Made by a program: the position numbers and the translations under genes
Part shown: positions 3,204 through 44,915 of the stretch, in pieces
Layout of the letters: the number at the start of each line of letters is the position of its first letter
Numbering within the stretch: the first letter of the stretch is position 1
Notes under the pieces: generated by a model
Databases searched by the model: none
Seen by the model: only the letters and a program-made list of their open reading frames with translations
Told to the model about the DNA's origin: nothing
Assembly (NCBI RefSeq): GCF_003633895.1
Contig: NZ_RBID01000004.1
Coordinates: forward strand, 1-46,258
DNA: 46,258 nucleotides
Source: Vogesella indigofera
GTDB lineage: Bacteria; Pseudomonadota; Gammaproteobacteria; Burkholderiales; Chromobacteriaceae
Direction of reading: 5' to 3'

Positions 3204-3229
3204 CCTTGCGGCCAACGTTGGCCGCAAGG
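3204..3229. repeat. Fused palindromic copy of the GTTGGCCGCA repeat
   Basis: This perfect 26-bp palindrome contains TGCGGCCAACGTTGGCCGCA (3207-3226): two overlapping, inverted 10-mer cores. It lies between gltB and gltD, inside one operon, where an RNA hairpin could attenuate gltD or protect gltB mRNA. The same fused form recurs at 16137-16156 and, imperfectly, at 32245-32263. Confidence 0.9.
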
Positions 3230-3269
3230 CGTTTCTTTCTTGTCCAGGGGCGGACAGGCCGCCCGTCGC

Positions 3270-6200
3270 TTAGTCTTTCAGCAGGCTGTCGAGCTTGGCC
3301 GCCTTCGGTTTCACCAGCCAGAAGTAGTCGACGTAGTCGTCGAAGTTCTCCAGCATCGCGCGCCCGGTTTCGGAACCGGTCAGCTCGACGTGCTTGGCGA
3401 TCTTCTCCAGCAGGTAGGCGCGGTACATGCCCATCGCCTCGCCGTTGATCAGGTTGATGTCGACCAGCTCGTTGTTGTAGCGGTAGGCAAACTTCTCGGC
3501 ACGGTCAAACACGAAGGCGAAGCCACCGGTCATGCCGGCACCGAAGTTGTAGCCGGTCTCGCCCAGCACGATGACGCTGCCGCCGGTCATGTACTCGCAG
3601 CAGTGGTCACCGGCGCCCTCGATCACCGCCAGCGCGCCGGAGTTGCGCACCCCGAAGCGCTCGCCGGCGACGCCGGCCGCGAACAGCTGGCCACCGGTGG
3701 CGCCGTACAGGCAGGTGTTACCGATGATGATGGACTCGTCCGGCTTGTAGGCGGCGTCCTTCGGCGGGTAGATCACCACCCGGCCACCGGCCATGCCCTT
3801 GCCGACGTAGTCGTTGGCATCGCCTTCCAGCTCCAGGTGCAGGCCCGACGCGTTCCACACGCCGAAGCTCTGGCCGGCGGAACCGCTGAACTTCACCTTC
3901 AGGCAGCCGAACGGCAGGCCGGCGGCACCGTGCACGCGGGCGATCTCGCCGGACAGGCGCGCGCCGATGGAGCGGTGGATGTTCTCGATGTCGTAACGCA
4001 GTTCCAGCATCTGCTTGTTGTGGATCGCCGGCAGCGCATCCTTGAGGATCTGTTCCGCCAGCTCGCCCTTGTCGAACGACGGGTTGGAGTCGGTGACGCA
4101 GAAGCGCGGCACGTCATCCGGTACCGTGCCCTGCGACAGCAGCGGCGCCAGGTTCAGCTTGTGCTGCTTGTCGGTGACGCCGGCCTCGAGGTTGAGCAGC
4201 TCCATGCGGCCGATCAGCTCCTCCATGTTGCGGGCGCCGAGCTTGGCCATCCACTCGCGGGTTTCCTGGGCGATGAACAGGAAGTAGTTCATCACCATTT
4301 CCGGCAGGCCGATGAAGTACTTCGAGCGCAGCTTCACTTCCTGCGTCGCCACGCCGGTGGCGCAGTTGTTCAGGTGGCAGATGCGCAGGAACTTGCAGCC
4401 CAGCGCCACCATCGGGCCGGTACCGAAGCCGAAGCTCTCGGCGCCCATGATCGCGGCCTTGATCACGTCGAGGCCGGTCTTCAGGCCACCGTCGGTCTGC
4501 ACCCGCACCCGACCACGCAGGCCGTTGGCGCGCAGCACCTGCTGTGCCTCGGTCAGGCCCAGCTCCCACGGGCTGCCGGCGTACTTCACCGACGCCAGCG
4601 GGCTGGCACCGGTACCGCCGTCGTAACCGGAGATGGTGATCAGGTCGGCGTAGGCCTTGGCCACGCCAGCGGCGATGGTGCCCACGCCCGGTTCGGCGAC
4701 CAGTTTCACCGACACCAGCGCGGTCGGGTTGACCTGCTTCAGGTCGAAAATCAGCTGCGCCAGGTCCTCGATGGAATAGATGTCGTGGTGCGGCGGCGGC
4801 GAGATCAGCGAGATGCCCGGCTTGGAGCAGCGCAGCTTGGCGATCAGTGGCGATACCTTGTCACCCGGCAGCTGGCCGCCCTCGCCCGGCTTGGCGCCCT
4901 GTGCCACCTTGATCTGCAGCACTTCGGCGTTGACCAGGTAGTGCGGGGTGACGCCGAAACGGCCGGACGCCACCTGCTTGATCTTGGACATCTTCTCGGT
5001 GCCGTAACGCGACGGGTCTTCGCCGCCCTCGCCGGAGTTGGAACGACCGCCGAGGCGGTTCATCGCGGTGGCCATCGCCTCGTGCGCTTCCGGCGACAGC
5101 GCGCCCAGCGACATGCCGGCGGAGTCGAAACGCTTGAGAATGCTTTCCACCGGTTCCACCTCGTCGATGGAGATCGGGGTGATGCCGTCGAAGTTCAGCG
5201 TCATCAGGTCGCGGAACATCGCCACCGGACGGTTGTTGACCAGCTCGGCATACTGCTTGTACGCGTCGTAGTCGGTGTTCTGCACCGCCTTCTGCAGCGT
5301 CATCACCACGTCCGGGTTGTAGGCGTGGTACTCCTCGCCGTGCACGTACTTGAGCAGGCCGCCCTGCGTCACCGCCCGCATCGGGTTGAAGGCCAGCTTG
5401 GACAGCTTCTGCTGGTCGTCCTCGAAGTCGTCGAAGTTGGCGCCGGAGATGCGCGACACGGTGCCCTTCAGGCACAGCGCCACCACGTCTTCGTGCAGGC
5501 CGATACCTTCGAACAGCTGCGCACCGCGGTAGCTGGCGATGGTGGAGATGCCCATCTTGGACAGCACCTTCATCAGGCCCTTGTTGATGCCCTTGCGGTA
5601 GTGCTGCAGCGCTTCGTTGATGCGCAGGTTGACGTCACCGGTGGCCACCAGATCGACAATGCTCTGGTAGGCGAGGTACGGGTACACCGCGGTGGCGCCG
5701 TAGCCGATCAGCGCGGCCATCTGGTGCGGGTCGCGCACGGTACCGGTTTCCAGGAGGATGTTGGACTTGCAACGCAGACCGGCATCGATCAGCGCGTGGT
5801 GCACGGCACCGGTGGCGAACAGTGCGTGGATAGGCAGACGGTTGGCCGCAATGGTGCGGTCGGACAGCACCACGATCACGGTGCCCTCCTGTACCGCCTC
5901 CACCACGTGGGCGCACAGCTTGCGGATCGCCTGCTCCAGATTGCCTTCGGCCGGGTCGTAGCACAGGTCGAAGGTGGTGGCCTTCAGGTAGGCTTCCGGA
6001 CGGGTGGTGATGCGCAGGAATTTCTCGCGCGACAGCACCGGGCTGCGCACTTCCAGCCGCTTGGCGTGCTCGGCGGTTTCCTCGAACATATTGCGCTCGG
6101 GGCCGAACACAGTGTTCAGCGACATCACGATCGCTTCGCGGATCGGGTCGATCGGCGGGTTGGTCACCTGCGCGAACTGCTGGCGCAGGTAATCAAACGG

Positions 6201-43772: not shown

Positions 43773-43803
43773 AAAAAAAAAGCCGCCCGCTGCTGCGGAC
43801 GGC
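43773..43803 (-). terminator. Rho-independent terminator of the isocitrate/isopropylmalate-type dehydrogenase gene
   Basis: On the minus strand GCCGTCCGC-AGCA-GCGGGCGGC (one mismatch) is followed by nine T, about 110 bp after the stop. Confidence 0.8.
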
Positions 43804-43913
43804 CACTTCCAGTTCGCTTGGCGAAGACGCCTCCCCGCCAATCCCGACTATAGCCAATGGTCGGCGGCGACGGAATGCGGCATCTTGTCGCAGCCTGCCC
43901 TGTCCCGCAGCCC

Positions 43914-44915
43914 TTAATCCAGATCCAGCCGCACCAGCACCGCATCGCAAAACGTCGCCGTACTCGCGTCCCCGCCAAGATCGGGGGTGGCGATGCCGTC
44001 GGCCAGCGTGCGCCGCACCGCCTGCTCCAGGCTTGCGGCCAACGTTGGCTGCGCCCACCAGTGGCGCAGCAGCAGCGCCAGCGACAGCAGCGCCGCCACC
44101 GGGTTGGCAATGCCGCGACCGGCGATGTCCGGCGCCGAGCCGTGCACCGGTTCGGCAATCGCCGCCTCGGCGCCCAGGTTCAGCGACGCCGCCACCCCCA
44201 GCCCGCCGCCGAAAGCCGCCGCCAGATCGGAAAGAATATCGCCGTAGAGATTGGGCGCCAGCAGCACGTCGAAACCTTGCGGCGCCTGCGCCAGCTTCAG
44301 CGCGGCGGTGTCGACCAGCAGCTCGTCCACCGCGATCTGCGGATAATCCGCGGCCACTTCGCGCGCCGCGTCGCGGAACAGGCCGTCGGTGAGCGGCATG
44401 ATGTTGGCCTTGTGCACGATGGTGACGCGCCGGCGGCCGCCGTCCTGCGCCAGGCGGAACGCGGTCTCGGCGACGCGGCGCGAGGCGGCACGGGTGATGC
44501 GCTTGATGGCGGTGGCGGTGTCGCCGTCGGACTGCTCCTCGCCGACATACAGGTCTTCGGTGTTCTCGCGCACGATCAAGAGGTCGATGCCCTCGGCCGC
44601 GCCGCAGCCGGGCAGGCTCAGGGTTGGCCGCACATTGGCGTGGCAGCCCAGCTCGCGCCGCAGCTGCACGATCGGCGAGCGGTAACCGGCCACCGGATAC
44701 GCCGGCGAGCTGACCGCGCCGAACAACACCGCGCCGCAATCGCGCGCCGCGGCCAGTGTCGCCGCCGGCAACGCCGTGCCCTGCTGCCGGAAGGTGTCCC
44801 AGCCGGCGTCGGCGGTCACGATCTGCAAAGCCGGCAGCAGCCGATGCAATACCCGTACCGCCTGCGGCACCACTTCGCGGCCGATGCCATCGCCGCTGAT
44901 CACGCATAGTTTCAT
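43914..44915 (-). CDS. Isocitrate/isopropylmalate-family NAD-dependent dehydrogenase
   Basis: 333 residues. Beta-decarboxylating dehydrogenase fold: GDGIGREVVPQAVRVL at the N-terminus, LRRELGCHANVRP near 84 (substrate arginines), ENTEDLYVGEE near 115, HKANIMPLTDGLFRD near 167, and the metal-site NLYGDILSDLAAAFGGGLG near 222, then VHGSAPDIAGRGIANP near 257. The serial pattern fits isocitrate, homoisocitrate or tartrate/malate enzymes more than LeuB, which would normally sit with leuCD; the substrate is open. The ATG at 44915 has GGGAG about 7 nt upstream and gives the usual KLCVISGDGIG start. Two repeat-like motifs (44034-44046, 44620-44632) lie in frame. Confidence 0.85.
   Translation of the reverse strand: MKLCVISGDGIGREVVPQAVRVLHRLLPALQIVTADAGWDTFRQQGTALPAATLAAARDCGAVLFGAVSSPAYPVAGYRSPIVQLRRELGCHANVRPTLSLPGCGAAEGIDLLIVRENTEDLYVGEEQSDGDTATAIKRITRAASRRVAETAFRLAQDGGRRRVTIVHKANIMPLTDGLFRDAAREVAADYPQIAVDELLVDTAALKLAQAPQGFDVLLAPNLYGDILSDLAAAFGGGLGVAASLNLGAEAAIAEPVHGSAPDIAGRGIANPVAALLSLALLLRHWWAQPTLAASLEQAVRRTLADGIATPDLGGDASTATFCDAVLVRLDLD

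Follow-up and report, generated by a model that had tools for sequence, protein, structure and literature searches.

What is the function of a short word that recurs on both strands along a 46,258-nucleotide stretch of the Vogesella indigofera genome? This stretch, hereafter the window (G000:C13:1-46258), is part of a 20-contig, 3.62-Mb genome and contains 15 exact copies of the 13-mer AAGGTTGGCCGCA, on both strands. An initial annotation, made from the window alone, had read the word as an uptake signal, with terminator spreading as one alternative. Abundant uptake words have been described in Pasteurellaceae and Neisseriaceae (PMC7811141). We place Vogesella in the Chromobacteriaceae, order Neisseriales, and our analysis suggests that the word is very probably an uptake signal of the DNA uptake sequence (DUS) type, read by a ComP-like pilin and lying outside the family for which DUS have been described.

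Abundance and layout of the word in Vogesella

All 15 annotated 13-mers were found, with one start shifted by a single base (23615, not 23616). Allowing at most one mismatch gave 31 window sites, compared to a mean of 0.08 and a maximum of 1 in 100 dinucleotide shuffles. The core GTTGGCCGCA occurred 33 times where 0.47 copies were expected, in line with the earlier estimate of about 33 against less than one by chance. Fourteen of the 33 cores sit in seven inverted pairs and 19 are single (ten plus, nine minus), the same mixture of single copies on either strand and inverted pairs that had been described before.

The abundance of the word is not a local property. The whole genome holds 960 exact 13-mers, 489 and 471 by strand, so that the count outside the window, where a chance level had been named by the initial annotation as evidence against its reading, is not at chance level; the pattern read backwards has 0 copies in the same genome. 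Across 13 Vogesella genomes the exact 13-mer was present 379-960 times each, compared to 0-7 times in 24 genomes from nine other genera of the family and 0-1 times in 24 genomes of other families. In a 446-kb sample, comprising the window plus 20 stretches of the same genome, the core occurred 268 times against 3.3 expected under a third-order Markov model (~80-fold), and the over-representation foreseen earlier was thereby confirmed. Single-base variants of the 10-mer were near or below expectation in this sample, except at positions 1 and 10: C at position 1 was found 15 times against 3.2 expected, and C or G at position 10 gave 29 against 7.5 and 5.9. The core was most commonly preceded by AAG, followed by AAC.

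Single sites over 33 stretches of the genome, window included, numbered 140 on the plus and 134 on the minus strand (bias P = 0.76; between-stretch heterogeneity P = 0.18), and the word is therefore not confined to one strand; such confinement had been named as evidence against an uptake signal. A plus-strand bias seen in one match listing was discarded as an effect of that listing, given the whole counts of 489/471. Using a gene caller made for this analysis, which returned 387 genes at 83% coding and therefore probably missed some, we placed 137 of the 268 cores within genes and 131 outside or spanning an end, with 48 and 85, respectively, for the 133 exact 13-mers. The commonest reading frames of the copies encode A-A-N, L-A-A and V-G-R (residues translated by hand). 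Vogesella thus carries a strongly over-represented short word, genome-wide, on both strands and fixed in the clade, which is the genomic definition of a DNA uptake sequence.

In addition, the sample contained 43 inverted pairs, 4 inside called genes and 39 outside. The extragenic pairs lay between convergent (24) or tandem (15) genes and in no case between divergent ones (P 0.0003-0.0006), against a baseline in which divergent gaps make up 19% of gaps of at least 30 nt. Pairs were located a median of 26 nt past the stop (63 gene ends), and a T-rich tail, with at least five T among the nine bases that follow the hairpin, was present at 24 of the 63 ends compared to 3.9% of intergenic 9-mers. 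By position and T tails, the inverted pairs are placed like intrinsic terminators and would be expected to terminate transcription; uptake signals are known to serve as terminators (Kingsford 2007, PMC1852404). The copies in the window are listed below (pairs are given without strand).

3207-3226: inverted pair, palindromic form (20 bp), flanked by two minus-strand genes
5841-5850, plus: single core GTTGGCCGCA, 13-mer off by one mismatch
9609-9621, minus: single exact 13-mer
12268-12297: inverted pair of exact 13-mers, 4-nt spacer, T tail, convergent genes either side
14578-14590, minus: single core, 13-mer with one mismatch
15771-15783, minus: single core, 13-mer with one mismatch
16025-16034, plus: single core
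16137-16156: inverted pair, palindromic form, convergent genes either side
16923-16935, plus: single exact 13-mer
18050-18062, plus: single exact 13-mer
18796-18808, plus: single core, AAC replacing AAG
20356-20368, minus: single core with AAC
23615-23627, plus: single exact 13-mer (23616 in the initial annotation)
29185-29215: inverted pair of exact 13-mers, convergent genes either side
30065-30077, minus: single exact 13-mer
32251-32263, plus: single core with AAC, directly beyond the rep helicase reading frame (30219-32234)
34578-34608: inverted pair, one copy a 13-mer with one mismatch
35774-35783, minus: single core
38168-38177, minus: single core
39272-39302: inverted pair of exact 13-mers, stop codon 23 nt before
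41261-41291: inverted pair of exact 13-mers, convergent genes either side
42145-42154, plus: single core
43365-43374, minus: single core
43443-43455, plus: single exact 13-mer
44034-44046, minus: single core with AAC
44620-44632, plus: single core, 13-mer with one mismatch

The first 2000 nucleotides of the window have a G+C content of 51%, compared to 60-72% in the remaining 2-kb windows, and the first core appears only at 3207. The window also carries tandem tRNA-Gln genes with an identical anticodon (22466-22643), and its Rep helicase is 99% identical, over the best segment, to its V. margarita and V. alkaliphila counterparts.

Dialects across the Chromobacteriaceae

Exact 13-mer counts had at first suggested a motif exclusive to Vogesella, a view that was dropped when de novo counts in sister genera gave dialects. 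We ranked words de novo in 18 samples, 12 of at least 76 kb and six of 15-44 kb. Among the larger samples, a GTTGGCCGNN form was top-ranked in seven of 12. GTTGGCCGCA led in the V. indigofera genome, with 235 copies in 400 kb, and in a pool of five Vogesella-group loci, with 78 copies in 105 kb. GTTGGCCGAA led in strain JH1-16 and in Gulbenkiania (38 and 47 copies, respectively, in 102 kb each), in P. subflava (14 copies in 86 kb) and in Crenobacter oryzisoli (11 copies in 76 kb), and GTTGGCCGAG led in C. luteus, where 102 kb contained 70 copies. Nothing similar led in the other five samples, from C. caeni, Aquitalea aquatica, Chromobacterium vaccinii, C. amazonense and Paludibacterium purpuratum. 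A motif form led in only one of the six small samples, that of V. oryzae, and over-represented words in Formivibrio and Laribacter appear to be local repeats.

In agreement with the ranking, whole genomes gave 2168 copies of GTTGGCCGAA in JH1-16, 1245 in Gulbenkiania, 893 in P. subflava and 579 in C. oryzisoli, and 1590 and 1940 copies of GTTGGCCGAG in G015 (C. luteus) and G024. Carriers of GTTGGCCGAA are thus Gulbenkiania, Pseudogulbenkiania, strain JH1-16, Crenobacter oryzisoli and one of ten genomes of the Aquitalea genus, while Chromobacterium-group and the remaining Aquitalea-group genomes showed background counts only. We scored a genome as motif-bearing when a single dialect reached 100 or more copies, counted as a 13-mer for the GCA, an 11-mer for the GAA and a 10-mer for the GAG form. 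Among 61 genomes of the GTDB family, 23 were motif-bearing (13 Vogesella, 3 g2, 2 g3, 2 g4, 1 g5, 1 of 10 g6 and 1 g10) and 38 were motif-free (9 g6, 19 g7, 6 g8 and 4 g9). G029, with 105 copies, is borderline; two g8 genomes have mildly raised GTTGGCCGAG counts (92 and 85), and P. purpuratum has 62 copies of GTTGGCCGAA. In an order-wide draw of 250 genomes, GTTGGCCGAA did not exceed 36 copies per genome, except in G017, which belongs to the Chromobacteriaceae. The word family is therefore present in seven of the ten GTDB genera of the family, with dialects that differ at the last two bases.

A ComP-like pilin as candidate receptor

The initial annotation had proposed looking for comP-like minor pilins. 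A search of the V. indigofera genome for prepilin N-termini gave ten matches, nine above the cut-off, and two of the ten were compared with solved structures. One of these, encoded on contig 11 at about 94.2-94.6 kb, matched ComP over residues 40-137 (2NBA, E 7.9e-10; 2M3K, 4.4e-7; 5HZ7, 2.3e-6), with PilE chains scoring equal or better via the shared N-terminal helix. The second, PilE-like pilin had 0 ComP matches among solved structures. A profile built from 12 soluble domains, all of motif-bearing genomes, placed the three ComP chains first (4e-19, 3e-18 and 5e-17; next match 9e-7) and matched a single place in the genome. A profile of seven domains from motif-free genomes also found the ComP chains, more weakly (best 4.5e-12). 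The candidate is a type IV prepilin, and among solved pilins ComP is the nearest to its soluble domain.

An order-wide pilin search, in which at most 19 candidates were scored per genome, had its best matches beyond the Chromobacteriaceae in families f44 and f41; we take f44 to be Neisseriaceae because four of six f44 loci hold Neisserial DUS. In a maximum-likelihood tree of 55 rows, which is unrooted (midpoint only for drawing) and in which many inner branches are unresolved, f44 ComP, the Chromobacteriaceae ComP-like pilins and three f41 rows (L253, L255 and L256) were separated from PilE-type pilins with support 97/99. The genome therefore encodes a minor pilin of the ComP clade. The matched soluble domain has two cysteines in 21 of the 23 motif-bearing genomes and three in 2. 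A genome of the Neisseriaceae group (f44_G258, L249) likewise has a ComP-like pilin with two cysteines, and the DD region of ComP may therefore be a later addition.

Immediately upstream of the comP-like gene, at about 94.6-95.0 kb of contig 11 (L098/L099), lies a prepilin-like gene, FimT/GspH-like by eye, and the same arrangement is found in G001. None was found in seven non-Vogesella loci by a simple pattern scan, which also missed the Gulbenkiania pilin. For C. violaceum, BLAST revealed no ComP (Frye 2013, PMC3630211). In our analysis, all 19 genomes of the Chromobacterium group g7, among which C. violaceum was not singled out, had divergent ComP-like pilins lacking the loop described below, and a single-protein search gave no ComP-like pilin in three named Chromobacterium species.

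ComP touches DNA via its beta1-beta2 loop and the DD region (Berry 2016, PMC4906244), and a stretch of the Chromobacteriaceae pilin probably corresponds, by alignment, to the beta1-beta2 loop. There, the pattern N[TVA]DX[GD]X[YF] was present in 22 of the 23 motif-bearing genomes and in 0 of the 36 motif-free genomes with a pilin match, two further motif-free genomes being without any match (Fisher's P 3e-15, ignoring shared ancestry). The contrast also holds within a single genus. In the Aquitalea genus (g6), G017, which is absent from the pilin profile, combines 1368 copies of GTTGGCCGAA with NTD, whereas the other nine genomes have 0-8 copies of GGTTGGCCGAA and NAR. A lysine preceding WPxLP was considered as a second tracker and dropped, since G017 bears the motif but not the lysine. 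The motif-rich genome G021 (L237) has a ComP-like pilin without NTD, with a second prepilin gene adjoining. ComEC was found in 59 of the 61 family genomes, including that of V. indigofera, where ComEA is also present; with ComEC, ComEA and its prepilins, this genome encodes DNA import genes of natural transformation. Since motif-free genera also have ComEC, it is the pilin loop, and not ComEC, that separates the two groups.

Possible kinship with Neisserial DUS and competing explanations

We compared the dialects with seven DUS dialect sequences taken from published text. On one strand and in one register, the GAA form shared 6-9 of 12 bases with these, at best 9/12 with AG-simDUS and AG-mucDUS (best-score P = 0.012, mean P = 0.002), and the Vogesella form shared 6-8, at best 8/12 (best-score P = 0.08, mean P = 0.015). 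All 21 motif-DUS comparisons agreed in strand and register, and the comparisons made between known dialects gave up to four differing bases in 12. AG was the commonest dinucleotide before the core in all seven motif-bearing samples, in C. luteus in only 20 of 70 copies. The earlier statement that known DUS dialects share no core with the word was thus right in that the CTG core is absent, but the 12-mers do align, at 6-8/12 for the Vogesella and 6-9/12 for the GAA form. A CTG core is reported to be essential in N. meningitidis. A at +10 is present in two of the three dialects, and the combination typical of Neisseriaceae DUS, CTG at +6 to +8 with A at +10, was not found.

The Vogesella system resembles Neisseriaceae DUS/ComP (PMC3630211; PMC4906244) in its strict word of 10-12 bp, with hundreds to thousands of copies on both strands, in its clade-specific dialects, in AG being commonest at -2/-1, in inverted pairs at gene ends, and in a minor pilin that is homologous and falls within the ComP clade. 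It differs in having CCG for the CTG core, in a pilin with two or three cysteines and an NTD loop, in which the second DD-region disulfide is not apparent, and in its occurrence in Chromobacteriaceae. On most genomic tests, site conservation and foreign-DNA depletion aside, the motif behaves like a DUS, and it falls outside the strict Neisseriaceae DUS/ComP system by its core and the DD region. The overall layout is also that of the Pasteurellaceae uptake signal sequences, from which the Vogesella word differs in sequence (ACAAGCGGT, and also AAGTGCGGT, in Pasteurellaceae). No ComP homologue exists in Pasteurellaceae according to Berry 2016 (PMC4906244).

Further evidence comes from foreign DNA and from the conservation of sites. 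A 20-kb stretch of contig 9 (L278, C9:20001-40000; G+C 54%) encodes TnsA-like, integrase and TniB domains, and also carries two C5 cytosine methylases and a SNF2-type helicase. This Tn7-like stretch has 1 core against 11.3 expected (P = 0.00015, or 0.005 corrected for 33 stretches), a single case, at lower G+C, that is supportive of depletion in foreign DNA but not decisive. Position conservation, another check proposed at the outset, gave a mixed picture relative to other 10-mers of equal G+C in the aligned window. Intact window sites were raised in V. fluminis (19/22 vs 56%) and V. oryzae (5/8 vs 19%) but not in V. margarita and V. alkaliphila, and five other loci of the Vogesella group had 2 intact sites out of 4 or 5 vs 18-21%. 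Sites evidently turn over.

Several observations weigh against a DUS-type signal read by the pilin. In all three dialects CCG stands in place of CTG at +6 to +8. The DUS likeness of the Vogesella form is weak (best-score P = 0.08 with seven dialects, 0.11 with six), and the 10-mers alone, with the flanking two bases removed, gave P = 0.07 for the GAA and 0.36 for the GCA form. The pilin lacks the four cysteines that hold the DD region of ComP. Motif-free Chromobacterium and Aquitalea pilins match ComP too, more weakly, and homology alone therefore does not track the motif. G021, whose assembly is 80% complete and 7% contaminated, bears the motif without the loop; the loop rule was formulated after viewing the sequences, G017 among them, and the pilin profile was drawn from motif-bearing genomes. 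Intact sites were not raised in V. margarita (11/20 vs 59%) or V. alkaliphila (11/17 vs 65%), and 0 of 6 sites in total were intact in five loci from other genera. Even spacing of sites was without significance (P = 0.08). Motif density correlates with G+C over the stretches (Spearman 0.64), and the scarcity in the Tn7-like stretch may therefore partly follow composition. In the search of the 61 family genomes, G002 and G008 gave no ComEC match. Finally, no report of Vogesella transformability was present among the literature matches listed.

Repetitive extragenic palindromic (REP) and BIME elements are intergenic hairpins at gene ends, and the inverted pairs of Vogesella form similar hairpins. 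A REP-like repeat that spreads terminators, with single copies as decayed halves, would explain why 39 of 43 pairs are extragenic, many with T tails, and why the 13-mer is enriched outside genes (85/133). It is nevertheless improbable: 137 of 268 cores lie within genes, and the terminator alternative raised by the initial annotation accounts for the pairs but not for the many single intragenic copies. The word is short and strict, a unit of just 10-14 bp; its variants are near expectation save at positions 1 and 10, unlike decay; and its dialects are clade-wide, with a pilin loop that tracks them. More improbable still is a chromosome-organising or recombination motif of the Chi, KOPS or matS kind, bound by a cytoplasmic protein. 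Copies do occur throughout the genome, with between 5 and 14 collapsed sites per 20 kb across the first 20 stretches, but they show no strand bias overall or by stretch (140/134, P = 0.18), form inverted pairs at gene ends, are at background in sister genera and vary by genus in the last two bases. Least credible is a restriction-modification target or by-product of codon usage. The word contains GGCC, a common restriction site, and its most-used frames encode common residues (A-A-N, L-A-A, V-G-R). A restriction target should be depleted, yet the core is enriched ~80-fold (268 vs 3.3), about half of the copies lie outside called genes, and the word varies among related genera.

The preferred reading of a DUS-type signal, which the initial annotation had favoured, draws support from the genus-wide abundance, the dialects of sister genera and the ComP-clade pilin, from a loop that, save for one case, tracks the motif over 61 genomes, and from the terminator-like pairs, the scarcity in the Tn7-like stretch and the ComEC and ComEA genes. 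According to this explanation, GTTGGCCGCA, mostly after (C)AAG or AAC, would be the Vogesella DNA uptake sequence. On outside DNA, the motif would be bound by a minor pilin of the ComP kind that is part of the type IV pilus, and binding would promote uptake by favouring import of same-genus DNA via the pilus and secretin, ComEA and ComEC, after which the DNA would recombine. Recurrent uptake and recombination would fix copies where harm is small, at gene ends and in tolerant codon frames, gene-end pairs would double as intrinsic terminators, and related genera would use dialects varying at the final two bases. Judged from sequence comparison, the tag very likely serves self-recognition in DNA uptake.

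Whether the word descends from the ancestor of Neisserial DUS is a separate matter. A convergent signal, with the function proposed here, departs from our explanation solely at this last step of common descent. It is a possible though less likely account, favoured by the missing CTG core, by the 8/12 match of the Vogesella form (P = 0.08) and by the 10-mers alone (P = 0.07 and 0.36). The 9/12 match of the GAA form (P = 0.012; mean P = 0.002), the agreement of 21/21 comparisons in strand and register and the AG before the core in 7/7 motif-bearing samples (just 20/70 in C. luteus) argue for descent, and the likeness to known DUS hints that the Vogesella system and Neisserial DUS/ComP share one ancestor. 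We lean slightly towards a history in which sequence-specific ComP uptake predates the split of Neisseriaceae and Chromobacteriaceae. An ancestral two-cysteine ComP without the DD region would have read a AGGTTGGCCGAA-like word via its beta1-beta2 N-T-D loop, the CTG core and DD region would be later Neisserial acquisitions, Chromobacterium and most Aquitalea would have lost loop and motif, and the last two bases would act as the password letters of each genus. By contrast, Frye 2013 (PMC3630211) concluded that DUS originated only once the lineage had parted from the ancestor it shared with Chromobacterium violaceum, and saw no obvious DUS in any of five genomes, one of them Pseudogulbenkiania sp. 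NH8B; in our counts, P. subflava has 893 copies of GTTGGCCGAA.

Among the literature matches listed, as assessed from titles, the first lines of abstracts and term counts, there was no report of DUS in Chromobacteriaceae. The 13-mer as written occurred in no paper (its reverse complement was not searched whole), and Table S1D of PMC3630211, with over-represented 10-mers of five outgroup genomes, may contain the word. A 2025 V. indigofera paper used conjugation.

Taken together, these results bring in another family, which has its own dialects, a candidate receptor and, within one genus, a natural contrast in the receptor loop, and the tag system may be older, and vary more, than earlier descriptions suggest. 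If this is true, the origin of DUS could move before the family split and the CTG core would not be universal. How a pilin reads DNA becomes testable by comparing related folds that have or lack the DD region, and that have or lack the NTD loop, and DNA tagged with the right word might ease the transformation of these environmental bacteria.

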